Made by a program: the position numbers and the translations under genes
The notes under the pieces: model-generated
Databases searched by the model: none
The model's input: only the letters and a program-made list of their open reading frames with translations
What the model was told of the DNA's origin: nothing
Part shown: positions 3,753 through 19,726 of the stretch, one piece after another
Numbering within the stretch: position 1 is the first letter of the stretch
How the letters are laid out: each line of letters begins with the position of its first letter
Assembly: GCA_001797815.1 (NCBI GenBank)
Contig: MGQK01000092.1
Span: 1-34,979, forward strand
Direction of reading: 5' to 3'
DNA: 34,979 bases
From: Deltaproteobacteria bacterium RBG_13_61_14
GTDB lineage: Bacteria; RBG-13-61-14

Positions 3753-4859
3753 TTACTTATTTATAGAATTATATTTGCCATCCATAATCTGTTGTCTTTC
3801 AAATGGTTTGGTATTGCAATCACCATTCCCGTCAAATTTTGTCTCACCAGTAGCTCCGTAATATAGGGGCATAGTGAGAAGGTAATCACGAAGGTTTAGA
3901 TTAGAATTATAGCTTTCATTATAAGCTTTGGCAAGGATCATCGCGATATCGTAAGAGTAGCCGGCATAAATATCGGGTTCCTCATTATACTTCGCATAAA
4001 AGAAATCCCGAAAGGTCTTATAGTCAGCTCCTTGAAAAATCGCTGGTTTGACCAAGCGTACGCCTTCAGCTGCATCACCGGCAGAGGTGATTAGCTCGGG
4101 AGAACTCCAGACGTCGGAGCCAAAAACGCTCTTGTTATAGCCAAGTTCCTTGGTTTGCTTAAGTATAAGACCTCCCTCTTTACCATAAGTTGGAGAGTAA
4201 ATAGCGTCCGGGTTTGCGGCGATAAGCTTGGTCAATTGAGTGCGGAAGTCCCGGTCGCCTTCGTTACAACTCTCGATACCAGCGATCTGCCCCCCGAGCG
4301 CACCGAATTCCTTGACGAATTGATCTTTCAGACTTACTCCCCAACTGTTATTGACGTACAGAATGCCGACATTATTGATGTTAAGTTCACGCATCCACTT
4401 GGCGAGTATTACGGCTTGGTAGGCATCCGAGGGACACACACGGAAGAAGTAATCGCCGCCCTTGGTCGTGAGTTCAGGTGAAGAAGAAATGGGTGAAATT
4501 TGAACGACCTGATAACGGTTGGCGATGGGAGCAATAGCCAGGGAGACTGAACTTGCAGCTTCACCGATTACAGCAGGGTAACGGTTGATAGAGCAGAACT
4601 TATTCATGATCGTTACGGCTTCCTTGGCGTTCCCTTTGCTGTCCTGATATTCGACCGCTATCTTAACCTTGAAATCGTTAGAAGCATTGATCTGCTCCAG
4701 CGCAAGATCAATACCTTTCTTGGCGTTATTGCCGTAAGAGGCAATATCACCAGTCAGGGGAAGAACTGCGCCAATTTTTATTTCGCGGCGGTCCTGCTTG
4801 TTGCAGCTAACAACCAAGCTAATTGCTATCAAAGCTAACACAATCTTCCTGATTCCCAT
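3753..4859 (-). CDS. Liv-type periplasmic solute-binding lipoprotein
   Basis: Type-1 periplasmic binding protein of the LivJ/LivK family that captures the substrate and delivers it to the LivHM permease. The first 19 residues form a lipoprotein signal ending in the lipobox L-V-V-S-C, so Cys19 is the predicted lipid anchor. The mature protein starts with the hallmark IKIGAVLPLTGDIASYG, followed by G-x-x-x-A-x-E-x-I-N-A; the ligand-contacting regions 'GEAASSVSLAIAPIANRYQV' and 'ISPISSSPELT' are present. The length of 368 is normal. A strong GGAG-type ribosome site supports the ATG at 4859, which makes the gene overlap the 3' end of the radical-SAM gene upstream by 41 bases. Specificity (branched-chain amino acid, amide, urea or other) cannot be set. 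Confidence 0.9.
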   Translation of the reverse strand: MGIRKIVLALIAISLVVSCNKQDRREIKIGAVLPLTGDIASYGNNAKKGIDLALEQINASNDFKVKIAVEYQDSKGNAKEAVTIMNKFCSINRYPAVIGEAASSVSLAIAPIANRYQVVQISPISSSPELTTKGGDYFFRVCPSDAYQAVILAKWMRELNINNVGILYVNNSWGVSLKDQFVKEFGALGGQIAGIESCNEGDRDFRTQLTKLIAANPDAIYSPTYGKEGGLILKQTKELGYNKSVFGSDVWSSPELITSAGDAAEGVRLVKPAIFQGADYKTFRDFFYAKYNEEPDIYAGYSYDIAMILAKAYNESYNSNLNLRDYLLTMPLYYGATGETKFDGNGDCNTKPFERQQIMDGKYNSINK

Positions 4860-6033
4860 GACACTCTCTCCTTCCTAATTGAAGCAATGCGGTTTGATCA
4901 TTAAGGACCCTGTCCAGGACGCGACTATAGATGCCTTCTGGCAGAGTTACACCGTCCTTGAATGGACAGTGGCAATTGAACATCCCGGCAAAGCGCCATT
5001 GCTTGTTAGCCTCCCAGATTTCCGTAATTGTCTGTTCGTGAATATTGCCCAATGGATTTCCACTGTCACCGGGACATCTGATGACAGTTCCGTTGCAGGT
5101 GAGATAGACACCGGCAGCAATTTGGTTGCATGGATGGATGCCAACAAGGCACGAAATGCCCTCAGTGAGCATTTGTCCCTTACTTTGGATACCGTGCTCA
5201 AGGTTATAACGATAAACTCGAATGAAGAATAGCTCCTTTTCTTCGGCAGAGACGTCGTTTGCGGCCAAGAAATGAGTGTCGATCTGCTTTCCACTGACCA
5301 TGAGGGCCGCATTCACGGGAAGGATGTTCCTTCGGCGAGCGTAGACATAAATGTTAAAAAGCTCGCCATAGTTCATGGACATGATCGGGTTAGCACAGAT
5401 AGCGAGACGAGTGGGCGAAGTTTTGTTAAACCCGATATCAGCCAGTATCTCCAACGCTCGATTGCGTTTCAGAGTATACCCTTTGACATCACCAACAAGC
5501 TTGTCCTGAATCTCAGGGTGCGCAGACTGGAAGCCAACCAGGAAGCTCGTCTTGAATCGAAAAAACTCCTCGCATAGCGAAACTGCATTATCAATACCGT
5601 ATTTGCCATAAATGCTTGTCACATGATTGTCATCTCCCAGAACATGGCCCTTCGTGAAAATAGATAATCCGAGACCCATTGCCGTTAGGTCTCTGGCAAA
5701 CGGTAGGAGGCGGGAGTCCTCCAGTGGTTCCCCTGCACCGCATATTTTGATCTCACGAAGACCAAGAGTCTTAGCTTCTTCCAGCACGGCCATTATCTGT
5801 TCGTACTTAAGATCAGGGTAGTTATAATCATCAACGGGGTTGCTCTTTCGGAAGCAAGAGGGACAACGGAGAGAGCATTTCCTGCCCAAATCTATATCCA
5901 TCATAAGCAGCGCGTGTTGGTTCCGTGCGAGTTCATCGGCGCTGAAGAAACCCCAGTACTGGACAAGATTGCCTTTATCTAAAGGCCGATGGAGGACATC
6001 TACCTTAGGAATGTTCGGGTACATAGGAGTCAT
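4819..6033 (-). CDS. Radical SAM protein with Cys-rich C-terminus (second of a pair)
   Basis: Radical S-adenosylmethionine enzyme. The cluster-binding motif C-x3-C-x2-C is CSLRCPSC at residues 53-60 of the 404-residue protein, and a GAGEP-like SAM-contact segment (ICGAGEPLED) follows about 45 residues later. The last 100 residues carry several Cys (C-N-Q, T-C-N-G-T-V-I-R-C-P-G, N-C-H-C-P), the layout of a SPASM or Twitch auxiliary [4Fe-4S] domain. The ATG at 6033 is chosen because it overlaps the stop of the upstream radical-SAM gene (ATGA); a longer frame to 6111 exists but would overlap that gene by 82 bases. SPASM-type enzymes mostly modify peptides or proteins, but no precursor gene is evident; a small-molecule substrate handled by the adjacent importer is equally possible. 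Confidence 0.85.
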   Translation of the reverse strand: MTPMYPNIPKVDVLHRPLDKGNLVQYWGFFSADELARNQHALLMMDIDLGRKCSLRCPSCFRKSNPVDDYNYPDLKYEQIMAVLEEAKTLGLREIKICGAGEPLEDSRLLPFARDLTAMGLGLSIFTKGHVLGDDNHVTSIYGKYGIDNAVSLCEEFFRFKTSFLVGFQSAHPEIQDKLVGDVKGYTLKRNRALEILADIGFNKTSPTRLAICANPIMSMNYGELFNIYVYARRRNILPVNAALMVSGKQIDTHFLAANDVSAEEKELFFIRVYRYNLEHGIQSKGQMLTEGISCLVGIHPCNQIAAGVYLTCNGTVIRCPGDSGNPLGNIHEQTITEIWEANKQWRFAGMFNCHCPFKDGVTLPEGIYSRVLDRVLNDQTALLQLGRRECHGNQEDCVSFDSN

Positions 6034-7361
6034 CTCAGAATCTCTAAGTGCTCTGGCAAGTATGAAGGAACTTCTGCGTCTGTTTCGGTGTAGAATACAG
6101 AGCAAGCGCACAACTTGAAATCAAAGAGAGCCTTACGAAAGAGAGCGGAGTAGATAACATCATGTATAGAGATTTTCTTGAAGTTCCCGTACCAAGTGCT
6201 ATGGCTGGGGCAGTCCATGATGTCGCCGTTTGGGTATACCGCAAAGGAATACAACGGTCTCCTACACTGGGGCTGGCCAACCATGCGCTGTCCGAACTTC
6301 AGTGAATAGTCGAGGCCCAGGTTGTAATCCGCTTTCCGTACTCGCTGAAAAAAGGTTCTTGCCTCAGCGAACGTATGGCAACGGCTTTTCTCCTCATGGG
6401 AACTGAGGATCTGGATATACTCTTCTATCATTGGCACGATATGCAAAGCACGCATAATTGGCAGAAAGTCATTGATGATACGGTCTTCATTCTCCTTCGT
6501 AACCGGCACCTCCACTGCCAGCCGATTTGAATAGTGCATGCCCTCCTGCATGCAGCGCTCTATGGTTGCAATCGTCCTTCGGAAACCATTAATCTGAACC
6601 TCCGAGTTGTGGTACTGCTCAACGGTGTCGCGTAAAGATATGATCAGAACGGTGCCCAGCGAATTGAGCCGTGATATATCCCTAGCCGATAATAGAGTTC
6701 CATTCGTAAACACAACGGGTGAAAGCCCATGCTCGACAATTAGCTCAAGAAACCCAAAAGCTCCCTCCCAAGTGAATAATTCCCCACCCCCGCCGTAAAC
6801 AACAGCTTGCACGCCGTGGTCTCTAAGGAAGGAGAGAATCTCATGAAGCTCATCAGTAGAGTAAAATGGACCGGACAAATGGGGAGGCAACCTGTTCTTG
6901 TCCTGGCCGGTGAAACAACCTCTGCACCTCTGGTTACAGAGCGTCGGAAGCATCAGGTAAGCGAACTGGAAGAGGGGATGCTCTACCTTATTGGATATCC
7001 ACTTGATATTATGATTGATGATCTTTGTCGTTTCTTCATCAGCGTAATAGTATTTTAGTAGCGGGCGCGCTGACCATAGATAATCTAATGTCCTAATCTT
7101 GGAACTGTCCAATACCAGACCGAGGTTGGAATCCTCCCTTAGGAATCCTGCCAATCCAGACAGATATTGGATTCGACTGGTGCTTTGATGCTCTACGATG
7201 CCAACTGCGGGGCGTTCAATGTCCTGCTGGTGTTCGGGGTGACCGACTCTCGCGGTAGGTACGCGAGTTGGCCCACATGGTGGCGGAACTGAACAATTAC
7301 GGGGGCGCTCAAGAGCATCACCGGGCCGGTTTATTGACCTCTCACTATTCCTTTTCAACAT
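6030..7361 (-). CDS. Radical SAM protein with Cys-rich C-terminus (first of a pair)
   Basis: Radical S-adenosylmethionine enzyme with the cluster motif CNQRCRGC (C-x3-C-x2-C), then YGGGGELF, which corresponds to the GGE SAM-binding motif, and VFTNGTLL on the next strand. The C-terminal part has PQCRRP, DIMDCPSH and LCAC, suggesting an auxiliary Fe-S cluster. It is only loosely similar to its neighbour, with which it overlaps by four bases. The start is uncertain: ATG 7361 is taken because it would couple to the DUF499 stop at 7345, but roughly the first 55 residues from there are Pro/Arg-rich, GC-rich and unlike the AT-richer rest. Conserved-looking sequence begins only near base 7170, where non-ATG starts exist. 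The 5' end may therefore be a recombination junction. Confidence 0.78.
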   Translation of the reverse strand: MLKRNSERSINRPGDALERPRNCSVPPPCGPTRVPTARVGHPEHQQDIERPAVGIVEHQSTSRIQYLSGLAGFLREDSNLGLVLDSSKIRTLDYLWSARPLLKYYYADEETTKIINHNIKWISNKVEHPLFQFAYLMLPTLCNQRCRGCFTGQDKNRLPPHLSGPFYSTDELHEILSFLRDHGVQAVVYGGGGELFTWEGAFGFLELIVEHGLSPVVFTNGTLLSARDISRLNSLGTVLIISLRDTVEQYHNSEVQINGFRRTIATIERCMQEGMHYSNRLAVEVPVTKENEDRIINDFLPIMRALHIVPMIEEYIQILSSHEEKSRCHTFAEARTFFQRVRKADYNLGLDYSLKFGQRMVGQPQCRRPLYSFAVYPNGDIMDCPSHSTWYGNFKKISIHDVIYSALFRKALFDFKLCACSVFYTETDAEVPSYLPEHLEILR

Positions 7362-10300
7362 CCGCCTCATCCAACGGCTCCTCCACCGCATTTCGGAGCC
7401 AAGCAGAATCGTAGCCCTTTTCTGAGATTCCGTCAACCTGAATCGTCACCTTCCCCTCATCCGACCTATCCGCCAAATTGGCAATGGCCTGGAAAGCCTT
7501 AAAGACTTGATCCCTGGTTGCCCGAAACCGGATACTGACCGAGTTCCGAAAACCGCCTATCGGCCTGGCAGGCTCATCAGGAGCTCCAGGCACAGGCCCT
7601 GCCGGAGGCATCCCCGGCTCTTCAAATGGCTTCCCAGGCTGTCCTGAGACGAGCGGTTCCGGCAGCGCACTCGGCCAGATCAACCACCCCGCTTCCAAGT
7701 CAATCTCATCCTCCGAGACCTGCCGCCCAATTACCACCTTCTCCCGGCTCACCTGGGCCTTGCCGTCCCCCATGACGGCGGGAACATTTCCACTGCCGTA
7801 TCCAAACATCCCCTCGCCAACACCTTTGGCAATAGCAGAGCAGATAGCCTTCATCGACTCCAGCCTCGGCGGCGCAATGTCCCGGTAAAACGCCTCCACC
7901 ACCTCCGCCGTCTTGATGCACACCACCCCCCCCTCTCCCAGCCTCACCCTGTCCGCCACCTTCCTCGCCGTCACCGTGCTGTGCACCTTGGGCGTCCCCG
8001 CCTTGGTCAACAATTCCATGATCCGCTCATGCACCCCGGTCGCCTGCAGCGGCCTCCCCCCGACCTCCACCGCCTCGATACCCAGGCCGCCGTTCTCAAC
8101 CCTCGGCAACCACACCGCGTTATACAAACTCCGAAACCCCGACTCCGCTGCCGCCTCCCAGGTCCGCCGCTGTTCCTTGAGCTGGTCCTGCTGCTCCTTG
8201 GACAATCGGTGCTGGCTCTTCTTGCTGTCCACCCTCTCCACGGCCATGATGTAGCGCACCGCCCGCCGCAGGCTTTCGATCTGCTTTTTATCGGGAATCG
8301 CCAGGCCAATCCCATTCCTGAACTTCCGGGGCTTGTTCCCGTAGTTGGAAAAAATCTCGACCGCCTGCTTTTCCTGATCGGCCCTGGTCCCCCTGGCAAA
8401 TTCCAGCGGCAGATACCCCACCAGAAAGCGCGGCTCCTCGTCCGATACCGCGCGCGAGTCCGTTGGCCATACCACCGCGTCGTGATGGCCCGCCAAGCGC
8501 TGAGTTAGCATCTCCTTGATCCTGACCGTGACCTCCTCTTGATGTCGCGCCACTTCTTTCTCCGCGTCCTCGATCAGCTTGGTCACGTTGGGGTCTTTCT
8601 TGAAGCAATAGTGCACCCCGTCATAGTGGAGATATAAGCACGCGTTCTTGAGTTCCCCCAGCACCGCCCGGGCTGTGGTGCTATCCAGGTCCGGGCCAAC
8701 ACACGCCGCCAGAAGTTCGCCTTCGGTTACACCTGGCGGCAGAGTTTCGCTGTCCTTGTCTCCCCCGCGCTTGAGTCCGCCGAACGAGAAAATGAAGATG
8801 GCCGTGGCCAGCCGGGTCGCAGGCTTCACCCCGGACATAGCCGGCGTCTCCTGCGCCATCCGGTCGTCAATCCGCTTGGCCCTCGCATTCGGCCCCACCA
8901 CGTCCGCCAAGATCACCGCATCAAAGTCGTTCTGCGCCCCCAGCTCCTTGAGCATCTTCACGCGCACTTCCGCATTCTTGAGCGGCACCTCGCCCGGCCC
9001 CAAGAGCGCCCTGGCCCCTCCCTCCTTTTTCAAGGCATGAAGGCATGAGGCCAGGAACCGGAGCGCGCCCCGGGTCCGCTGGAACTCATCCAGCGAACAC
9101 CACCGCTCCTTCATCGCGTCAATCAGCGCTGGATGGAATGGATAAGCAACCCTCATCCGGTTCCGAAGCGCCAGCCCGTCCTCATCCGCCTGTTTACGGG
9201 CGGACGAGGTCTCGGCCAGAGCGCACATCATATTAGTCACGATCTCGGAATAGGCTTCGCTCACTTCCCTGCAAGCGTCCTCCGGCGGGGCCGCGCTCAG
9301 GAGCCGCTTTTGGAGAACGTAAAGAATCTCGTCCCCGCTCACCGGCTCGCGCGATTGGTCCACCCGCGAGGCCAGGTGGTCTATCTCCTGCAGCAGGGCC
9401 ACGTTGCCCAGCGCCTCCCGCGAACTCCAGGTCAGAGAGTAAACCAGGGCGCAATTCTTGCTCCCCGAAACCTCCACGGTCAGGTTCTGGAAAAAGTCCT
9501 TGGTCTGGCGCTGCAGGGTCGAATCCAAAACCGCCACGGCCGCCGACCGCTCCATGTATTTCAAAACCTCGTCCAGCAGGATCAGCTTGGGACCCCCCTT
9601 GAGCAACTCCTTGATTTCGTCTCCACCCAGCGACACCCGCTTCCGGTCATGATCCTCGACCAGCTTGAATTTTTCCTCGCCAAACTGCCACGCAATCCAG
9701 CCCCACATGGTCTGAATGGTTTTCTCATCGCCCGACGAGGTCTTAACCTTCTTGCCGGTGGCGCTGAACTTTTCCCCGTCAAATACCGCCACCTTGACAG
9801 TTCCAGGGTCGGCAAAGCCCTTGGCCTCCGGGATGGTTTTTAACGCCTTCCTGGAGCAAGCCGCATGAAGAAGCGCGGCCAGGGTGTGCGACTTGCCGCC
9901 GCCGAAAGGGGTCCGGAGCTTGAGCACCCGATTATACCCCGCCTTGCCGGCCAGCGATGCCAGCACTTCTTCTAGAAGCCGCCGCATGTCTGCCGTGAGA
10001 TAAGTGGCCTTGAAGAACGCCTCCGGGTCCCGATACACCACCGGCACGTTCGGGTCCTTCTCCGCAATCGCTCCCAGGTCAATGGCAAATACCGCCTCGG
10101 TGAGCGCTCCCGCTTCCACATCCGGGTGGAGCTTCACCAACTCGGTCCAGGGCCTGATGCCTTTTTGAGCTATTGAAACCACCGCTTTCCCTTTCTTGGC
10201 AGGCTCGGTTATGAATCCTGCTTCCTTGACGAATAACCTAAGCTGCGCTGCAAAGAATTTCGCTTCCTCTTGACTTACCTCTTCCCTTTCGTGGGTTGCT

Positions 10301-10638
10301 TTGTTCCGAATATCAACGAAGGCATTGTAATTGGCCGTCTTCATATGAGTGAGCTTCTTGTCAAGCACTTTTTCAACATGTTCAAAAAGCTTTGCCTCGC
10401 GAAATAAACCTACCAACTGTCCAAGGGTAAAGTCATGTACAGCTTTGCCCTTACCAATAGCTTCTGCCTTCTCTGTAACTTTCTTTTGATCATCGGTTGA
10501 TAAATGGCCTGTGGCTTGGTTGTATAACTCTCTTAATAATTCCTCCAATACACCACCAGCCTCTTGAATGGACTGTTTATAATGGCCATCGGCGATCAAC
10601 CGGTCAACGGTTTCCAAACTGTTTGCCCAATTGCTCAT
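7345..10638 (-). CDS. DUF499-family ATPase with HEPN-like N-terminal domain (defence cluster)
   Basis: Large AAA-type ATPase (1097 residues) of the DUF499/COG1483 family, which is repeatedly found next to DUF1156 methylases in bacterial and archaeal defence islands. The Walker A motif is in RTPFGGGKSHT at about residues 238-248, and Walker B is LILLDEVLKYMER near 350-360. The first 140 residues form a separate helical domain containing D-I-R-N-K-A-T-H, an R-x4-H signature as in HEPN domains, so an RNase or nucleotide-transferring toxin-like activity is possible. The C-terminus is Pro-rich followed by a small alpha/beta tail. ATG 10638 is chosen over an earlier frame start because it has GGAG eight bases upstream and matches a normal N-terminus. 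It lies 40 bases after the methylase stop. Confidence 0.9.
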   Translation of the reverse strand: MSNWANSLETVDRLIADGHYKQSIQEAGGVLEELLRELYNQATGHLSTDDQKKVTEKAEAIGKGKAVHDFTLGQLVGLFREAKLFEHVEKVLDKKLTHMKTANYNAFVDIRNKATHEREEVSQEEAKFFAAQLRLFVKEAGFITEPAKKGKAVVSIAQKGIRPWTELVKLHPDVEAGALTEAVFAIDLGAIAEKDPNVPVVYRDPEAFFKATYLTADMRRLLEEVLASLAGKAGYNRVLKLRTPFGGGKSHTLAALLHAACSRKALKTIPEAKGFADPGTVKVAVFDGEKFSATGKKVKTSSGDEKTIQTMWGWIAWQFGEEKFKLVEDHDRKRVSLGGDEIKELLKGGPKLILLDEVLKYMERSAAVAVLDSTLQRQTKDFFQNLTVEVSGSKNCALVYSLTWSSREALGNVALLQEIDHLASRVDQSREPVSGDEILYVLQKRLLSAAPPEDACREVSEAYSEIVTNMMCALAETSSARKQADEDGLALRNRMRVAYPFHPALIDAMKERWCSLDEFQRTRGALRFLASCLHALKKEGGARALLGPGEVPLKNAEVRVKMLKELGAQNDFDAVILADVVGPNARAKRIDDRMAQETPAMSGVKPATRLATAIFIFSFGGLKRGGDKDSETLPPGVTEGELLAACVGPDLDSTTARAVLGELKNACLYLHYDGVHYCFKKDPNVTKLIEDAEKEVARHQEEVTVRIKEMLTQRLAGHHDAVVWPTDSRAVSDEEPRFLVGYLPLEFARGTRADQEKQAVEIFSNYGNKPRKFRNGIGLAIPDKKQIESLRRAVRYIMAVERVDSKKSQHRLSKEQQDQLKEQRRTWEAAAESGFRSLYNAVWLPRVENGGLGIEAVEVGGRPLQATGVHERIMELLTKAGTPKVHSTVTARKVADRVRLGEGGVVCIKTAEVVEAFYRDIAPPRLESMKAICSAIAKGVGEGMFGYGSGNVPAVMGDGKAQVSREKVVIGRQVSEDEIDLEAGWLIWPSALPEPLVSGQPGKPFEEPGMPPAGPVPGAPDEPARPIGGFRNSVSIRFRATRDQVFKAFQAIANLADRSDEGKVTIQVDGISEKGYDSAWLRNAVEEPLDEADVEKE

Positions 10639-10660
10639 CCCTGTAACTCCTTCTTCATGC

Positions 10661-10678
10661 TCTTGGTGTCTTGGTGGT
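10661..10678. repeat. Dispersed repeat CTTGGTGTCTTGGTGGT
   Basis: A 17-base sequence between the methylase stop and the DUF499 gene matches, with one difference, a copy inside the methylase gene at 12992-13008. It belongs to a kind of short C-T-T-G-G-T-G-periodic repeat that is commonly scattered in intergenic DNA of environmental bacteria. Confidence 0.6.
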
Positions 10679-13600
10679 TTATTTCTTCCTCTCCTCAAAC
10701 AAAGGCCCTGGCCCGGCCAGGCGGCCTTCGATCAGGGACTTCCAGTTGGCCAGGAGCTTTTGGAGCGCGGATTGTTCGGGCGCGGTGGTATGGATCAAGC
10801 GGGCCGCGTCTTCGGCGCTTTTGCCGGAAAGGGCGGTGCCGGCCAGGGCCTGGGCCACCATCCGCAGACGCTCGGAGTCAGGCCGGGCCTCGTCCAGAAA
10901 CTTGTTCAGTTTTCGGGGCTGGTTCTCGATGAGCCAGAGGATGCGGTGCAGGGTGTCAATCAGCGGCGCAGACATTCCTGTCTGCGAGTCGGGCAGGCCC
11001 AGATTGTCATTATCTCCTCGCTCCTCAAAATCCAACAGGCGATATTTGCCTTTCTTCTTGGCGATCAGGGCGCGGCTGCCAGCCGAGAGTCCGTGCTGGC
11101 CGTCCAGCTCCACGTTTTGGCCATAGGTGAACACGATGGCCTCGCCAGCGTCCATCTCCGCCGCCTTGTAGGTGTAGCGCCAGAGCACGTAGAACCGGCT
11201 CGGCCCGTCCACTGCCGCCATGCGGCTTCCTGCCTGCGCCGCAGAGCCCCGCGTCGTGGCAGGCCGGCCGGCCACGCCAAAGATTTTCTCCAGGAGCGTC
11301 TCCAGCACGACTCCTTCCACCTCAGCCAGGAACTTCTTGGCCGGGACCTCCTCGCCGTTGGCGTATTCCACGCGAGAAAAGCGGGTGAAGGCGCGCAGTC
11401 CCGCGCCCACGGCCGCGATCACCAGATCCGCGCCGGTGATGCCCATCTTCCAGAGCGTGTCCACCCGCTCGCGGACGATCTTTTCCAGATCAGGGCGGAC
11501 GTCGTCTTCGTAGGAGCCGGTCAAGGAGCCTTCCCGCTTTCGGGCGATCAGGAAGATGCTGGAGGAGAGAGAGGCCGCCTCCATCGCAATCAGACGAGTG
11601 TCCATCTCGGTGTCAAGTGGCCAAGCTTCTGTGACTACGAAGCCAGCATTTCTTAGTGCGTCAACGAGAGTCGCCCAACCAAGTGTCGTCTTATGAGCAT
11701 AGACGATCATGAGCGGGGCTTCGTCTTTCATGGATCGGAATGCCTCTCGGAAAGATTGAGCCATCATATTTTCATAGGCCAGCTTGGCATTCTGCATGTT
11801 CCCGCCATATCTGCTGGCAAGCGCCGTAGCTTCGCCCTTCTTTGGTGTCAATGCACCGGCGAAATGCTCAGAAAACCTCGGCCCTATCGCTTGGCGCAAC
11901 CAAATATAGAAGAAATCCGAGATATCGGCATACGGTATATTGTCGTAATATGGAGGATCGGTGATAATTGCATCCAAGGCTTTGCCTGCAAATCCGGTTG
12001 CAGTGGCCGTTCCCCGTGAAACCTTGCCTGGCTCTGTTACACAACTGTCATGAATCACCTCCAAGACAGGAAGGAAGTTATTCCAGGCATCATTGGACAG
12101 TCCCCCGAAAGGGTTGATCTCAGGAAAGTCCCAAACCATTGTTAGCGCATGACGACCAAATGCACCTTCGACGCGACCAGCTTTATCGCCACGCCATCTG
12201 GCCATCGTCGTGCTTATCAATGCATTGCGGTCAAGGAACACACCAAGATACGCCAGTAACGCGTCGACACGTTCTTGGTCTATGCTTTGTGCCTCAAGGA
12301 CCGTTTCAGCAGATCGAATCGTCTTAACACAGCTAAGGAGAAATAGTAGTTGTCGCCGCGTGAACAAATCCGAAAAGCGCGAGAGGCCATAGCGCGTTAC
12401 TGCAGTTAAGCCGCGAGCATTTGGAGACGGTCGGGTTGGATCGATGTCGACATCAGGAACTGTAACGCCTGATTCGGCCAGGAGACATTTTAAACGCGCA
12501 TCGATCATCCCTGGATCGATTCTCGGAAATACGTCGCTTTCTGGTTGCAAGTACTTAATTTCTCCTGGTGATTGACTGCGATATGCAACAGCCATCAATT
12601 GCTCTCGAAAACCATGCTGGATACCTTCAAGCATAACATATTCGGTGTCCGCCACGGTACCGCAGAACGGGCACGTTGCGTTTCCGCCTTTTGATCCCGC
12701 CGCTGGATCAAACCCCAATCCCTTTTCCGTTTTCGCTTCGACCACCTCAAACCGGACATGTTTATGCTTTTTATCCGGGACCATTTTCATGGCCACGTAG
12801 CGGTCTTTCTTTTTACAAAGCCAGGTCTGCCTGACCAGCGGCACAGTGGCTCCGCATTTGGGGTTCTTGCACCGAACGGTCCGGGTCCAGAGGTATGCGA
12901 CAGGAGTTAAGAAACCTTCTTGATCCGCAGATGACGCAGATTTCGCAGATTCTTCAAATAATTTCTTCTGCTTCTTTCTGCCCTTGGTGCCCTTGGCGTC
13001 TTGGTGGTCATATTCCGGATCTGGGATCAAAGGGTAAAGATCGCCGATCTCGGCCTTGACCTTCTCCAAAACACAGATGCCCCAAAATCGGACTTCTTCG
13101 GCCAGTCCGCCCCAGGTCTTTTCGCCTGGCTGCGCCTGTCCTTCTAGACAGGCAGGCAGCCCCTTTCCATTCGCCGGCCCTGCCTGCCGCGACGCGAGAC
13201 GGCCAGCCTCCCATTCGCGTTTAAGCCATTTTCGGCCAAACCCGGTTTTTAATTCTTTTTCGCGTGCAACCGCTTCCTCACGATTTTGAAACTCCTCCCA
13301 GTGGATCAGTTCGACAGGCTTATGAGTGGCGGTCCACTCCGCTTTCCCGTTCAGGTGATCTTGGTAACGCCGAACGATATTATCGGTTTGGCCGATGTAG
13401 AAAGAATCATCCTCGCATCGGATGACGTAAGCCCAGAAGCGTCGCGGCGCAGGCAAGCCGGTCATACCCCGTTCATTCGGGTCGGGCTTGCCATATTTTT
13501 GCGGATAGACCAGGGTGCAGAGTTCGATGATGTGCGCCACCGGGTTCAAGTCCAGGGCATAGGCCTCACAGCCCAGGCGCAAAGCTTCCAGCGGGATGGC

Positions 13601-14125
13601 CCCGCCCCCGGCAAACATGTCGAGCACGCGGGGCCGGGGAGCGCGGCCCGCCTCGATGTCTTTAATTGTTACCTTCTCCCCCTTGAATTGAAATTCCTCT
13701 ATCCAAGGGGGACAGGCATTCTTGCCTGTCTTACATTCCTTGATTTCTTCAGTTAGTCTTTCCGCATGAGCTTCCAGGATGTGCTTTTGTGCCTCGGCAA
13801 TGACCTGGGGGTCGCCCGGATACTTGCACAGCTCGGTAATGAACTTGGCGGCATTGGCTCGGCCCAGAGATTTTCCATTACTGTGAAGACCGTTCTCCCT
13901 GCCTGCGCCGCGTTCCTCGTCGCGGCAGGCAGGCGGCACAAACCTCGACGCCGGCACCAGCGCCCCATACACCGCCGCCCGACACGCCACCAGCGGCCTC
14001 CGCGCCCACCACAAATGCAGGGTCGAGATATGCCCCTTCCGAACCGACTTTTCCCGCGAAGCCTCCTTGGAGATCGCCTCGATGGGGAGGTAGTCTTCGA
14101 TGAGTCTTTTATTTTCTTTTGTCAT
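10679..14125 (-). CDS. DUF1156 adenine-specific DNA methylase with in-frame GIY-YIG domain and repeat insertions
   Basis: N6-adenine DNA methyltransferase of the DUF1156/COG1743 type. The N-terminus has the family hallmark E-A-I-S-K-E-A-S-R-E-K-S-V-R-K-G-H, then L-H-L-W-W-A-R-R-P-L. The SAM pocket is VLDMFAGGGAIPLEA (about residues 166-180) and the catalytic motif is DPPYYDN near 722-728; a zinc ribbon (C-K-N-P-K-C ... C-P-F-C) lies near 415-490. The protein has 1148 residues. The excess comes from an inserted GIY-YIG nuclease-like domain at about 228-305 (A-Y-V-I-R-C ... F-Y-I-G-Q-T-D-N, then E-E-F and R-E-K-E-L-K-T-G) and several short repeat-encoded peptides. It probably modifies self DNA or acts with the DUF499 ATPase and SNF2 helicase in defence. 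The frame is intact throughout. Confidence 0.92.
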   Translation of the reverse strand: MTKENKRLIEDYLPIEAISKEASREKSVRKGHISTLHLWWARRPLVACRAAVYGALVPASRFVPPACRDEERGAGRENGLHSNGKSLGRANAAKFITELCKYPGDPQVIAEAQKHILEAHAERLTEEIKECKTGKNACPPWIEEFQFKGEKVTIKDIEAGRAPRPRVLDMFAGGGAIPLEALRLGCEAYALDLNPVAHIIELCTLVYPQKYGKPDPNERGMTGLPAPRRFWAYVIRCEDDSFYIGQTDNIVRRYQDHLNGKAEWTATHKPVELIHWEEFQNREEAVAREKELKTGFGRKWLKREWEAGRLASRQAGPANGKGLPACLEGQAQPGEKTWGGLAEEVRFWGICVLEKVKAEIGDLYPLIPDPEYDHQDAKGTKGRKKQKKLFEESAKSASSADQEGFLTPVAYLWTRTVRCKNPKCGATVPLVRQTWLCKKKDRYVAMKMVPDKKHKHVRFEVVEAKTEKGLGFDPAAGSKGGNATCPFCGTVADTEYVMLEGIQHGFREQLMAVAYRSQSPGEIKYLQPESDVFPRIDPGMIDARLKCLLAESGVTVPDVDIDPTRPSPNARGLTAVTRYGLSRFSDLFTRRQLLFLLSCVKTIRSAETVLEAQSIDQERVDALLAYLGVFLDRNALISTTMARWRGDKAGRVEGAFGRHALTMVWDFPEINPFGGLSNDAWNNFLPVLEVIHDSCVTEPGKVSRGTATATGFAGKALDAIITDPPYYDNIPYADISDFFYIWLRQAIGPRFSEHFAGALTPKKGEATALASRYGGNMQNAKLAYENMMAQSFREAFRSMKDEAPLMIVYAHKTTLGWATLVDALRNAGFVVTEAWPLDTEMDTRLIAMEAASLSSSIFLIARKREGSLTGSYEDDVRPDLEKIVRERVDTLWKMGITGADLVIAAVGAGLRAFTRFSRVEYANGEEVPAKKFLAEVEGVVLETLLEKIFGVAGRPATTRGSAAQAGSRMAAVDGPSRFYVLWRYTYKAAEMDAGEAIVFTYGQNVELDGQHGLSAGSRALIAKKKGKYRLLDFEERGDNDNLGLPDSQTGMSAPLIDTLHRILWLIENQPRKLNKFLDEARPDSERLRMVAQALAGTALSGKSAEDAARLIHTTAPEQSALQKLLANWKSLIEGRLAGPGPLFEERKK
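10967..10986. repeat. Short palindrome inside methylase gene (family 1)
   Basis: Perfect 8-bp inverted repeat CGCAGACA / TGTCTGCG around the loop TTCC, read in frame as part of D-S-Q-T-G-M-S-A. It shares its loop and half its stem with the palindrome at 13711-13730, with compensating differences between the arms. Confidence 0.7.
11229..11263. repeat. GC-rich palindrome inside methylase gene (family 2, copy 1)
   Basis: Left arm CCTGCCTGCGCCGC and right arm GTCGTGGCAGG form an imperfect inverted repeat. The left arm is identical over 14 bases to the copy at 13898-13911. The in-frame product is the Gly/Ala/Arg-rich peptide around 'RGSAAQAGSR', which interrupts otherwise family-like sequence. 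Confidence 0.7.
12922..13011. repeat. Two periodic dispersed repeats inserted in frame in the methylase gene
   Basis: Bases 12922-12951 contain a roughly 10-base periodic unit (ATCCGCAGATG, ACGCAGATT, TCGCAGATT). Bases 12981-13011 contain the CTTGGTGCC / CTTGGCGTC / TTGGTGGTC repeat, of which a second copy lies at 10661-10678. Both are read through in frame, giving S-A-K-S-A-S-S-A-D-Q-E and D-H-Q-D-A-K-G-T-K-G. Related GCAGAT-type repeats also occur in the intergenic DNA at 33510-33594. Confidence 0.7.
13151..13194. repeat. GC-rich palindrome inside methylase gene (family 2, copy 2)
   Basis: Inverted repeat GGCAGGCAG (13151-13159) and CTGCCTGCC (13180-13188). The 16 bases CCTGCCTGCCGCGACG at 13179-13194 are the exact reverse complement of bases 13918-13933. 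The repeat directly follows, on the protein level, the GIY-YIG domain and supplies the linker A-S-R-Q-A-G-P-A-N-G-K-G-L-P-A-C-L back to methylase sequence. Confidence 0.75.
13711..13730. repeat. Short palindrome inside methylase gene (family 1)
   Basis: Perfect 8-bp inverted repeat GACAGGCA / TGCCTGTC with the loop TTCT, encoding the in-frame peptide C-K-T-G-K-N-A-C-P. Confidence 0.72.
13898..13933. repeat. GC-rich palindrome inside methylase gene (family 2, copy 3)
   Basis: Arms CCTGCCTGCGCCGCG and CGCGGCAGGCAGG pair with a two-base bulge around the loop TTCCTCGT. It encodes the in-frame peptide P-P-A-C-R-D-E-E-R-G-A-G-R-E-N near methylase residues 64-78, a place where family members normally continue straight on. 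Confidence 0.75.
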
Positions 14126-14132
14126 TCAAAAA

Positions 14133-15005
14133 CTAATCCTTGCTCATAATTTGTTCCCAACAATCTGGGCAAGGATCTTCTTCCTCCAACTTCAAATTTT
14201 GGCACCTCGAACAGATTGAATAGTCTCCTCTTTCTCCGCACGAGGTACAAACATACTCACCATAATCATTATTATAAAGAACCCAGGTACACGTCATTTG
14301 TTCACAGTGGGGACAATTTTGTAGAATACCATCTTCTGAAATATCCATCGCTAATGATTCTGAATCAAGTTCATATCTACAAAATAGGCAATAAGGCTTG
14401 CCATTTTGTAATGCTATGGTTCTATTCAAGCATCTATTACAATCGAATAGATATTTCTCTATTTCTATTTGTGGCTTAATAGCCTTTAATCTTTCATCTA
14501 CGAAACTTTGGAAATGTCGTAAGTCTAAATATATATCTCCTATAATACTCTCTCCAATAGATTGATCTTTAATATTTTCATGATAAAATTCCAAAAGAAT
14601 ATTAAAGCCAATAGCCATCATTGATTGAGCCTGTTCAAGTTCAACATTAACAGCGAAATGTTGAATCCGATTTCTTAAATCTCTAATTTTTCTAATATTA
14701 TCAATCGCTAATTTACTCAATTTTACCCCTACTATTCCTTCAAGCCTTTTTATTGTTTTATCTAAATCTATGCCCTTAAAATCGCCAGTCTCAAGAGCTA
14801 CACGATTCGCATTATCTATATCATTAAAAATCAGAGACCAATGCTCCTGAGCAAGTCTCTCCTTAAAAAGCAGTTCGATTCCTGCGACCAGATGAAGCAA
14901 AGCATACTTGTTATCCCTTGGCGTTCCCTTCTTAACGCACTCTGCCGCGCTCAAGAGGTAATCAAAAGCATTTTCGAGGAGATTAAACTTTATTCGATCA
15001 GACAT
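14133..15005 (-). CDS. HEPN-like / multiple zinc-ribbon protein in defence cluster
   Basis: A 290-residue protein in two parts. The first 180 residues are helical and contain R-D-L-R-N-R-I-Q-H-F-A-V (about residues 110-121), an R-x4-H signature typical of HEPN ribonuclease domains, preceded by K-Y-A-L-L-H-L-V-A-G-I-E-L-L-F-K-E-R, a helix type also usual for HEPN proteins. The last 110 residues hold six CxxC knuckles (C-N-R-C, C-L-F-C, C-P-H-C, C-T-S-C, C-S-R-C, C-P-D-C), enough for about three zinc ribbons. It starts 120 bases after the preceding gene and ends seven bases before the methylase start. The coding sequence is strongly AT-rich compared with both flanking core genes, a sign of separate origin. 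A toxin- or effector-like RNase role is inferred. Confidence 0.82.
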   Translation of the reverse strand: MSDRIKFNLLENAFDYLLSAAECVKKGTPRDNKYALLHLVAGIELLFKERLAQEHWSLIFNDIDNANRVALETGDFKGIDLDKTIKRLEGIVGVKLSKLAIDNIRKIRDLRNRIQHFAVNVELEQAQSMMAIGFNILLEFYHENIKDQSIGESIIGDIYLDLRHFQSFVDERLKAIKPQIEIEKYLFDCNRCLNRTIALQNGKPYCLFCRYELDSESLAMDISEDGILQNCPHCEQMTCTWVLYNNDYGEYVCTSCGERGDYSICSRCQNLKLEEEDPCPDCWEQIMSKD

Positions 15006-15770: not shown

Positions 15771-18700
15771 TTAGTTCCCTCTCACTGCCTCTGCTGGTAT
15801 CTCAAAGAACCTCGCCGCCACTATTTCCTTCTTGGCGTGGTCAAGCTTTTCCGCAGGGTTCTGGATGGTGATGAGTTCGGAGTTGTCGGTCAAGGGGTCC
15901 CAGACCACGGCCAGCCAGTAAGTATGGGCAAGTTGCTGGGCCTTGAACCATTCGTTCACGGTGAGGCGGATGGGCAGGCACTTGGAGCGGCCTTTGACCT
16001 CGATGCGGCGCACCTCGATCTCTCCAGTAGCAGAATCTATCACGCGGTGAGCGCGGATGTCAAAGCCGAGCTTGAGGTGGCCCACGCGCTGGATGCAATC
16101 CTGGGCGAAGCCCTCCTTGACCAGGGCGGCAATGACCTGATCCTCAGCGGCAAGCTCGCTCTTGCGCTGGAGGGCAATGTCGCCCTCTTCCGCCAAAGCC
16201 AGAAGCTGAGCATCAGCACCCGGAGGCAGGACGATGGCACTGGCCACGTGGCGGACCGGGCCGGTGCGGGCGATCTCCAGGCGGGAGAGGCCGGAGAGGC
16301 GCTCCTCTCTTGCCCTGGTCAGTTCTTCCACTTCTTTGTGGGCCTCGTCCGCGACCAGTTGATAGTTGGGGTTCCTGGCGGCCTCGGCGGACCATTTCAT
16401 AGCCTGGACCTGAGCGCGGTCGGTGCGGACGCGGAAGGACTTTTCCAGGTAGTCCCGGACAATGGTCGTGTGTTTCTTTCGCTCTTCCTGGCAGAGGGAT
16501 CGGCGCTCAAGCTGGTAAGTGCTTTTTAGAAAATCACAGGCGGGTTGGGCATCCGCCGGGTCTATCTGAGAGGGCGGATTGGGATAAGGAGGGAGGTTGA
16601 GGATATGGTCAGCGGGGACTTGTTCAAAAACCGCAGGCGTGACGCCTGTCCTCCCTCCTTCCCCCGCTTCTTCTCTGACTGCCACCAATTCTCGATAGAG
16701 GTCGGTATCGTTGCCATTGGACTTTTTGCCCTTGATGGCGATTTCAAAAAAGTGGAGGCGATAGGGAGATTCGGCAAGGGGGTCGAGGTAGAGGGCCATG
16801 CCGCCGTTCAAGGGTTCGAGGTTCGAGTTGAGTTTCTCGTCCACGGCGGCGTAAAGGGCATGGCCGGGGCCGAGGAGGACGGCGTCCAGGTGTTGGTCCT
16901 GTTCCAGGTGATGCTTGTGGAAGGTGATCTTCCGATAGGATGGCTCAGCTTTGCCAAGTTTGCCCACGGCTGCCAGCCGTTCGGAGCGGAGGTCGGCCAG
17001 GACGTGCTCGATGCGGTAGAGGCCGTCGGCGCGCGTTTCGACGCGGAGGCCGACCTCTTTGGCGGCGGCCAGGAACTGCTCTTCCACGTAGCGGGGCATG
17101 AGGCGCTTTTCCTCGATTTCGAGGTTGCGGTGCTGGAAGGCGGAGAAGTCCACGTGGCTGCGGGCGAGCGCGAGGCCGGTGGCTTCCTCATATTCCTTGA
17201 GCTTCTTGGGATCAATCTTTTCGATCTGGTCCTCATACTCTTCCAGGCGGCGCGGGTCGTAGGCGGCCTCACGGAGCATTTCCGGGAGGTTGATGTCATT
17301 GAGGGCCAGGATCTCGCCGATAACATCAAAGACGCGACCGGCAAGGGCCTCGCGCATGGCGTCCATCTTTTCGAGGAGGCGGCTCAGGATGCGGCCCTCG
17401 ATCACCGGGTCGCCGCTATCGGAAGAGACTGCGACAAAGTTGAAGACGTAAACATCGCGCTCCTGGCCGATGCGGTGGATGCGGCCCATGCGCTGTTCGA
17501 GGCGGGTCGGGTTCCAGGGCAGGTCGTAGTTGACCATGAGGTGGCAGAACTGGAGGTTGATGCCCTCGCCGGCGGCCTCGGTGGCAACGCAGACCTGGGA
17601 TTGGGTGCGGAAGTCGTCCTGGGCCTTTTTACGCTGGTGAGGGTTCATGCCGCCGTGGATTTCGCAAGTGGAATAACCCCATCGCTGGATGTGGTCGCGG
17701 AGGTAGTTCATGGTGTCGCGGTGCTCGGTGAAGACGAGGAGCTTGCCGCGCCCGTCTTTGAGCTCGGCGAACTCGGCCCGGGCCAGGCATTCTTTGAGGG
17801 CGGAGAGCTTAGAGTCGTTGGCCTGCTCGCGGACGCGGCCAGCCTGGGCGGTGAGGTCTTTGATGACGGCGATTTCAGTGCGGAGCTGGTCCAACTCCTC
17901 GGCGGCGGTGAACTCATCAATGAGCTGGTCAGTGGCCGTCTCGTCGAGGTCGTCGTCCTCCTGCTCGCTGTCCGGGAGGTTGCCCTGGAGCTGTCCCAGG
18001 CGTTTGGCCCTTGCCGCCAGAGGCAAAGATGCCAGCTCATCCAGCAGATCCTGCTGTTTCTGGAGCCGGCGCTTGAGGGACTCGTGGATGGCGCAGGTGG
18101 AACTGGCGAGCCGGCGCTGGATTACGGTGCGGGCCAGGGCCGCAGAAGCGCGGCGCTTGCCCACCTGCTGGGGGATAAACTCATTGATGTAGTTGGTTAC
18201 GGCTTTGTAAAGGGCGAACTCATCGCCGTTCAGGGTGAAGGACACGGTCAAAGCGTGCCGATCCGGGAAGAGACGGCGGCCATCGGTGTCTTTGAGGTCT
18301 TCCTTGAGGCGACGGAGCGCCCAGAGGCAATCTTGACCGAGCTTGAAGATGGCTTTGCGGACTTCTTTGGCCTGTTTGCCGAGGCGGTGCGGCTCGGGGA
18401 AGAGGTCCGGGTCGAGGAGCCGGAGGAAGTGGGAGAACCTTTCGTCATCACCGTGATGCGGGGTGGCGGTGAGGAGGAGGACGTGGTCGGCCTTGGGAGT
18501 GAGCCGCCAGGCGAGGTCGTAGCGCTTGGTGGTGGCAACTTTCAGGTCGCGGCCCCGACCGCCGGACTTGGTGTAGGCGGAACACTTGTGGGCCTCGTCA
18601 ATAATGATAAAGTCCCAGCGTTGTTGCCAAACGCGCTCGCGGACATCGTCCTGCTTGGCGTAGTCAATCGAGGCGATCACCTGGGAGCATCGTTGCCATT

Positions 18701-19286
18701 GGTCGGTGAGCTGTTGCTGGTCCACAGCGGCATTGATAATGTCAAAGGACTCGTTGAACCACTGGAGCATTTCGTCTTGCCACTGGATGGTGAGAGGGGC
18801 CGGACAGAGGATGAGGATGCGCTCGATAGCCTCGCGGAGTTTCATCTCCTTGATGAGGAGGCCAGCCATGATGGTCTTGCCCGCACCAGGGTCGTCGGCC
18901 AGGAGGAAACGGAGGCGGGGCTGGGGGAGCATCTTCTGATAGACGGCTTCAATCTGGTGGGGCAGGGTGCGGATGCCGGAGAGGCTGACGGCGAACTGCT
19001 GGTCGTGGGCATAGGCCAGGCGGATGTGGGTGGACTCGATGAGGAGGCGGAGTTTTTCGGCGTCAACCGGCTTGATGACAGGGGATGGCGCGGCGGCTTC
19101 ACCCGCGAGAGTCTTGGCCTCTTCGACGGAGATTACGACCTCATCTAGGGAACCATCGGAAAGGCGGACGCGGCATTCGTAGCCGTTGCCCAGGGTGCGC
19201 ACCTCTTCCAGGGTCACGGGGAAATCAAAGTGGCCGGGCAATGAGATGCGCTGGCCGAGAGGGAATGTGAACTCCGGAGATGCCAT
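15771..19286 (-). CDS. SNF2-family helicase with C-terminal DUF3883-like domain
   Basis: Superfamily 2 DNA translocase of 1171 residues, first gene of the defence cluster. Motif I is DDPGAGKT (about residues 128-135), motif II DEAHK near 229, motif III LLTATPHHG, and the SNF2-type motif VI is QRMGRIHRIGQ near 598. A long coiled-coil-like segment lies between the two RecA lobes. The C-terminal 100 residues contain L-G-F-D-I-R-A then R-R-I-E-V-K-G-R (about 1090), the core of a DUF3883 domain that resembles PD-(D/E)xK nucleases. ATG 19286 (MASPEF) is chosen; a longer frame to 19382 adds a low-complexity start without family character. It likely translocates on foreign DNA with the methylase and DUF499 ATPase. 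A short palindrome at 16632-16650 is inserted in frame. Confidence 0.93.
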   Translation of the reverse strand: MASPEFTFPLGQRISLPGHFDFPVTLEEVRTLGNGYECRVRLSDGSLDEVVISVEEAKTLAGEAAAPSPVIKPVDAEKLRLLIESTHIRLAYAHDQQFAVSLSGIRTLPHQIEAVYQKMLPQPRLRFLLADDPGAGKTIMAGLLIKEMKLREAIERILILCPAPLTIQWQDEMLQWFNESFDIINAAVDQQQLTDQWQRCSQVIASIDYAKQDDVRERVWQQRWDFIIIDEAHKCSAYTKSGGRGRDLKVATTKRYDLAWRLTPKADHVLLLTATPHHGDDERFSHFLRLLDPDLFPEPHRLGKQAKEVRKAIFKLGQDCLWALRRLKEDLKDTDGRRLFPDRHALTVSFTLNGDEFALYKAVTNYINEFIPQQVGKRRASAALARTVIQRRLASSTCAIHESLKRRLQKQQDLLDELASLPLAARAKRLGQLQGNLPDSEQEDDDLDETATDQLIDEFTAAEELDQLRTEIAVIKDLTAQAGRVREQANDSKLSALKECLARAEFAELKDGRGKLLVFTEHRDTMNYLRDHIQRWGYSTCEIHGGMNPHQRKKAQDDFRTQSQVCVATEAAGEGINLQFCHLMVNYDLPWNPTRLEQRMGRIHRIGQERDVYVFNFVAVSSDSGDPVIEGRILSRLLEKMDAMREALAGRVFDVIGEILALNDINLPEMLREAAYDPRRLEEYEDQIEKIDPKKLKEYEEATGLALARSHVDFSAFQHRNLEIEEKRLMPRYVEEQFLAAAKEVGLRVETRADGLYRIEHVLADLRSERLAAVGKLGKAEPSYRKITFHKHHLEQDQHLDAVLLGPGHALYAAVDEKLNSNLEPLNGGMALYLDPLAESPYRLHFFEIAIKGKKSNGNDTDLYRELVAVREEAGEGGRTGVTPAVFEQVPADHILNLPPYPNPPSQIDPADAQPACDFLKSTYQLERRSLCQEERKKHTTIVRDYLEKSFRVRTDRAQVQAMKWSAEAARNPNYQLVADEAHKEVEELTRAREERLSGLSRLEIARTGPVRHVASAIVLPPGADAQLLALAEEGDIALQRKSELAAEDQVIAALVKEGFAQDCIQRVGHLKLGFDIRAHRVIDSATGEIEVRRIEVKGRSKCLPIRLTVNEWFKAQQLAHTYWLAVVWDPLTDNSELITIQNPAEKLDHAKKEIVAARFFEIPAEAVRGN
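16632..16650. repeat. Short palindrome inside the SNF2 helicase gene
   Basis: GCAGGCG-TGA-CGCCTGT forms a 6-7 bp hairpin and is read in frame as part of E-G-G-R-T-G-V-T-P-A-V. It resembles in style, not in exact sequence, the ACAGGC-type palindromes in the methylase gene. Confidence 0.6.
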
Positions 19287-19726
19287 TGGCTTTAACCTCT
19301 GCCGGATTCGACTCCTTGCCCTTTTTCCGCCTCCGTTAGTGCCTGCTAAGGCCCCCTGGACGCATGCGCACCCGGAATCCAACTTCAGGCAGGGCAGCAG
19401 GGAATCTTCTGTATTCCTTACAAGTCCGCCTTTCTATTCCGCTTGATTTTGAATGGCTAAGGTATATCTAAGTTTGAGGAGTTCGTCAAGTGAGGGAGGC
19501 GGGATAAAGTCAACGGTTAACGATGGTGGGATCGCAAGAACCTGAAGTTAGTTACTACGGTTCCAATTTTAGCCCAAGAAGTTGGCTCGGGATTACTTTA
19601 CTTTCATGGCCCTAAGAAGGTTACTGGGGGAGTCAACAAAGGGGGGACCCTTTAATACTGCCCCTAAACTTCCCCTCTGTTCGGCCCACGTTGCGCCATA
19701 GGTGGCTTTTCAAAAATGGTTCGGGG
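19287..19726. other. Region upstream of the defence cluster without recognisable gene
   Basis: About 440 bases upstream of the helicase. I see no convincing gene on either strand and no strong promoter for the cluster. Base composition is intermediate and stops are frequent from about 19440 onward. It probably contains the promoter of the helicase gene, but I cannot place it. Confidence 0.4.

Follow-up and report, generated by a model that had tools for sequence, protein, structure and literature searches.

The window analysed here is a 34,979-nucleotide stretch of Deltaproteobacteria bacterium RBG_13_61_14 (contig MGQK01000092.1, assembly GCA_001797815.1), in which the gene for HmaB, a DUF1156 DNA-adenine methylase (10679..14125, (-) strand, 1148 aa), is interrupted in frame by a GIY-YIG nuclease domain. 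The domain is an insertion whose ends are shared with relatives in other genomes. It also occurs at the same sites as a short nuclease-free (solo) form, its nuclease is under selection, and the nuclease form is restricted to defence genes. There is good support for the in-frame insertion, for membership of a family and for confinement to genes of methylation-based defence. We read the whole, with a probability of roughly 0.6, as a mobile nuclease-palindrome cassette that invades such genes in frame and probably homes at the palindrome. Mobility by cutting and copying, which we infer, is the best reading of how the cassette spreads.

A single unbroken frame runs through the whole 1148-aa open reading frame (14125..10679, (-)). 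Pfam finds DUF1156 (residues 12-71, 4.6e-24) and GIY-YIG (residues 231-296, 9.5e-15) in it, in agreement with the initial annotation of this DNA, which had recognised a complete GIY-YIG domain in frame inside a defence methylase. Uninterrupted DUF1156 proteins of cyanobacterial plasmids (41-45% identity) align straight across the site, with YPQKYGK directly followed by LA.EVEKWG, and therefore residues 214-340 (13106..13486, (-)), absent from these relatives, are an insertion. The borders first given, 13117-13467, located the insert and proved slightly too narrow; NERG and KTWGG, taken for contiguous methylase sequence, both lie within the extra stretch. From left arm to right arm the cassette covers about 13178..13457 ((-), residues ~224-316), with the nuclease core at residues 231-296. 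The methylase motifs FAGGGA and DPPY are preserved, in keeping with the earlier suggestion that the methylase was not destroyed. The same alignment, which had been proposed as a check, refutes the idea that GIY-YIG is an ancestral DUF1156 domain. This idea and that of an assembly chimera have virtually no probability left: the same arrangement with the same borders recurs across independent assemblies, and we found no point in their support.

The domain scores 55.1 bits against a gathering threshold of 22.6. Across 12 sequences Y23, G25, R33, H37, E69 and E71 are invariant and Y13 is nearly so. The predicted fold (predicted local distance difference test score 88) matches 1zg2 (UPF0213) and Slx1 in Foldseek. 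By its score, its putative catalytic Tyr, Tyr, Arg and Glu and its predicted alpha/beta fold, the domain can be placed in the GIY-YIG superfamily. The nuclease is under purifying selection: the ratio of nonsynonymous to synonymous rates (dN/dS) is 0.09-0.23 in the three pairs with measurable dS, and elsewhere, where dS is saturated, it is at most 0.13 assuming a dS of 3. An intein or group I intron was considered and rejected, since Pfam finds no Hint or splicing domain, Rfam finds no catalytic RNA, splicing residues are missing, and the insert is mostly followed by G, E or A and not by C, S or T. In most of the copies checked, the stretch from the arm to the first catalytic tyrosine contains no start codon. 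With an own start mostly missing and no splicing domain or RNA found, the simplest reading makes the nuclease an internal part of the defence protein.

The subfamily comprises 19 copies, 11 from a single scan in which the domain was searched against public genomes, seven found by profile searches in further genomes, and the window copy. They span at least six phyla, and the host gene is a methylation-based defence gene in all 19: HsdS in six cases (L012, L017, L019, L021, L022, L046), HsdM in five (L013, L020 and L131 at one site, L044 and L132 at another), HsdR in five (L014, L015, L018 and L043 at one site, L045 at another), and one each in a Type IIG enzyme (L016), HmaA (L130) and the HmaB of the window. 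PADLOC named the hosts of L016, L130 and the window; the remainder were named by reading conserved HsdS, HsdM and HsdR sequence. Two hosts look damaged, with a stop upstream in L020 and a stop within the neighbouring palindrome in L046. The initial annotation had offered a mobile insertion or a fusion. Its in-frame domain stands, and the family of 19 sets aside both an isolated fusion event and the arrival of a normal stand-alone gene. Nor did its suggestion that the same GIY-YIG gene might occur elsewhere in the genome find support: the stand-alone GIY-YIG genes there are only 32-37% identical, and a donor among them was rejected, the best other match having only 36% identity. In each of 11 genomes tested (11/11) the subfamily is present as a single copy, and the ordinary GIY-YIG genes of those genomes, which served as a control, are free-standing frames of 79-114 aa. 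GIY-YIG proteins in phage and plasmid collections are distant only, none covering 80% of the query, and no relative of the subfamily nuclease was found in viral contigs.

Most of the 19 copies are bounded by a left arm, CCTGCCTGCGCCGCG, and a right arm, CGCGGCAGGCAGG, with the arm consensus shared on both sides; the window nuclease has (C)CTGCCTGCGCCGCG on the left and CGCGGCAGGCAGG on the right. In the window these are the left arm CTTGCCTGCGCCGCG (13443..13457, (-)) and the right arm CGTCGCGGCAGGCAGG (13179..13194, (-)). Joined together, the left and right ends form a palindrome of ~30-33 bp that is also found alone. One such solo palindrome, consisting of left arm, 5 bp and right arm, stands in the same HmaB gene at 13898..13933 on the (+) strand, opposite to the gene, and reads in frame as PPACRDEERGAGR; it is the cassette minus its nuclease. 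A second of the same family lies near the C-terminus (11229..11267, (+); in-frame reading PATTRGSAAQAG). Just past the cassette, within the extra stretch, sequence inspection places a different palindrome, ggctgcctgcctgtctagaaggacaggcgcagcc (13128..13161, (-)), and this with the right arm constitutes the repeat-encoded linker that had been noted earlier. Alignment places another palindrome, gacaggcaagaatgcctgtc (13711..13730, strand (.)), within the in-frame extra stretch ECKTGKNACP. In the genome the arm has seven matches at ≤2 mismatches, and three of the seven, including the sole two perfect ones, are in the HmaB gene. Because the only perfect arm copies of the genome sit there, the repeats probably arrived together with the gene. 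A simple gapped inverted-repeat test around embedded copies gave no excess over controls, because the arms are short and offset; the evidence for the arms of embedded copies is the arm consensus in place of that test. Two further short repeats that look like widespread ones, caccaagacgccaagggcaccaagg and aatctgcgaaatctgcgtcatctgcggat, occur in frame in HmaB at 12925-13010.

The same HsdM, HsdR and HsdS sites are occupied repeatedly, as cassette, solo palindrome or empty. Before G.PF in HsdM, the cassette is present in L013, L020 and L131 and a solo palindrome in L047 (NN-LPAPRLRQAG-GIPF). The site before GF(D/N) in HsdR holds the cassette in L045 and the solo palindrome in L058. Within the HsdS of L012 the first half is empty (QDPND directly followed by EPAS) and the second half filled (QDHTD-[cassette]-EPAS); viral contigs yielded no solo copy at the HsdS site. 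In the nuclease tree, which has few well-supported branches, copies cluster by host-gene site and not by phylum (10 changes versus 14.9 when shuffled). Inserts at the HsdS and HsdM sites are 64-74% alike, compared with 30-58% for most of the host sequence, a short conserved HsdS edge being the exception. This greater likeness of the inserts suggests homing or a slower change of the domain.

These observations are most likely explained as follows. The insert would be a copy of a mobile element in which a palindromic repeat flanks a single GIY-YIG nuclease domain, one arm on each side; the domain would be translated within the host defence protein, and the solo palindrome would be the short non-autonomous form of the element. 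Cleavage by the nuclease would fall on the palindrome or, in an allele that lacks the cassette, on the corresponding site, and the break would then be repaired from the filled copy, which brings the cassette in. In this way the element would both interrupt and protect its own site, like a homing endonuclease of introns or inteins. No splicing would be needed, because the insert would be tolerated at permissive loops. Its passage between lineages would be by way of defence genes, which are exchanged among bacteria and not readily lost.

Several findings weigh against this scheme. No recent presence/absence pair exists among these genomes, and movement is not directly seen. Measured by the criteria for DNA transposons, the subfamily has inverted arms, yet no target-site duplication was seen in 52 solo copies, and no strict target motif. 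The HsdR1 and HsdS2 copies are without standard arms. A possible internal start codon is found in three flanked copies (L013, L019 and L045), and in the window an ATG is located just outside the arm. Finally, divergence at the HsdR1 (main HsdR) site is about the same for insert and host, which indicates old co-inheritance.

The last point, which holds across phyla, is also what would be seen if the domain were a useful fusion that adds nuclease activity to methylation-based defence, its position being irrelevant within the complex. Such a role would likewise be consistent with the purifying selection on the nuclease, with its presence in defence genes only, and with its occurrence in S, M and R subunits, which build one complex. 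We nevertheless regard this main rival as unlikely. HsdR has a nuclease already, the insertion sites are many and unrelated, and the palindromic ends, together with solo copies that lack the nuclease and occupy the same sites, resemble a mobile element. Occurrence is sporadic: with genomes drawn by phylum and the centre genomes counted in, the cassette is present in 3/396, 4/388, 2/247 and 3/82 genomes of four phyla, in total 12/1113 or ~1%. In the published case, a GIY-YIG domain inserted at position ~800 of the HsdR MCA0838 of Methylococcus capsulatus, the insert is missing from an 80% identical homologue and was termed a unique, possibly irrelevant insertion (Dunin-Horkawicz 2006; PMC1564403). 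The overall pattern favours a mobile passenger rather than a methylase-nuclease that aids defence.

An exact-pattern search found 31 solo copies in viral contigs and solo copies in 11/388 and 4/396 genomes, and a reversed control pattern gave no match. Of 52 distinct solo copies, 50 have a length divisible by three, as expected under selection on the reading frame. Their hosts are mixed and include a polyprenyl synthetase, a trypsin-like protease, phage portal and capsid proteins, and ParB. Such non-defence hosts are compatible with passive hitch-hiking, i.e., insertion anywhere with the best survival in defence genes, which are often transferred, variable and tolerant. In cellular genomes, defence genes are over-represented among the hosts of solo copies (about 9/29: HsdR, HsdS, HsdM, HmaC, BrxF twice, BrxC, a PglX-like methylase and PglZ). 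The nuclease form lies in defence genes in 19/19 cases, so some filter acts on it, and we judge hitch-hiking improbable, even more so than the useful fusion. In two genomes, both from the same phylum, several BREX genes (BrxF, BrxC, PglX-like and PglZ; L161, L162, L165, L166, L167) contain solo palindromes.

Apart from the 2006 HsdR case, the open-licence papers searched contained no description of the family, its ends, its solo derivatives or its restriction to defence genes. MCA0838, compared here by its published description, resembles our copies in having GIY-YIG in a restriction subunit, and by our reckoning L045 lies in the corresponding region; the 2006 account differs in having no palindromes, family or other host genes. 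I-TevI-type GIY-YIG homing endonucleases are similar in that a nuclease sits within a host gene at recurrent sites, with HsdS and HsdM inserts here more alike than their hosts. Unlike these, the present cassette has no intron or intein, splicing residues or Rfam match, and its domain remains in the host protein. UPF0213-type small proteins (1zg2) share the fold and are the closest sequence match among solved structures, but they are free-standing, whereas the subfamily is embedded and carries KELKTGFGRKWLKRE. Rickettsia palindromic elements are short palindromes lying in frame in coding genes and are linked to no gene, and in REP/RAYT systems short repeats are tied to a larger coding form, a tyrosine transposase. 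The palindrome described here differs from both in sequence and is linked to a GIY-YIG nuclease. The data tie together in-frame palindromic repeats and small GIY-YIG genes of unknown role, both common in bacteria, and reveal a nuclease cassette that occurs in anti-phage genes only. Should the cassette be mobile, it would be parasitic on bacterial immunity, travelling between phyla with restriction-modification and Hma systems, and the origin of such in-frame repeats would become testable.

More tentatively, and with somewhat less than even odds, the cassette may represent an unrecognised class of mobile elements, in which a palindrome, with or without a nuclease in its loop, spreads in frame through methylation-based immune genes by cutting uninterrupted copies, each GIY-YIG clade having its own palindrome family and a DUF559 pair being possibly analogous. 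Other GIY-YIG clades have their own inverted repeats on both sides: among free-standing relatives, 58% of 33 loci exceed the 99th percentile of 2000 controls for such flanking repeats. One clade has TTTACCCCGTGAGATA-like inverted repeats that also code for its C-terminal end NYLTG (L036, L039, L138, L140, L146, L155, L156, L159). Another (REKQVQGWSR) is embedded in frame within an HsdR-like protein, with a PEPVEG-coding CCTGAGCCTGTCGAAGG repeat on either side (L149). Some free-standing GIY-YIG genes, in part tandem, directly adjoin an apparent tRNA 3' half (GGTTCGATTCC...; L133, L135, L136, L137, L143, L154), as though they had inserted at the tRNA end. In a parallel to the case studied here, a DUF559-like nuclease with CCCTCTCC-type palindromes interrupts a DUF1156 gene (L074) and HsdR (L043); the name DUF559 rests on our reading and the record label 'endonuclease domain'.

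Within the window, HmaC, a DUF499 AAA+ ATPase (7345..10698, (-)), and HmaA, an SNF2 helicase (15771..19382, (-)), belong to the same operon as HmaB. PADLOC detects HmaA, HmaB and HmaC together (E-values 2.4e-187, 8.3e-113 and 1.7e-105), and because it names HmaB with these neighbours we assign the locus to an Hma anti-phage operon. A DUF3644-like protein with PDC-S64 and HEC-08 matches is encoded between HmaA and HmaB (14133-15005), and two overlapping radical SAM frames adjoin HmaC (4819-7436). The G+C content of the window steps from 49% to 63%.
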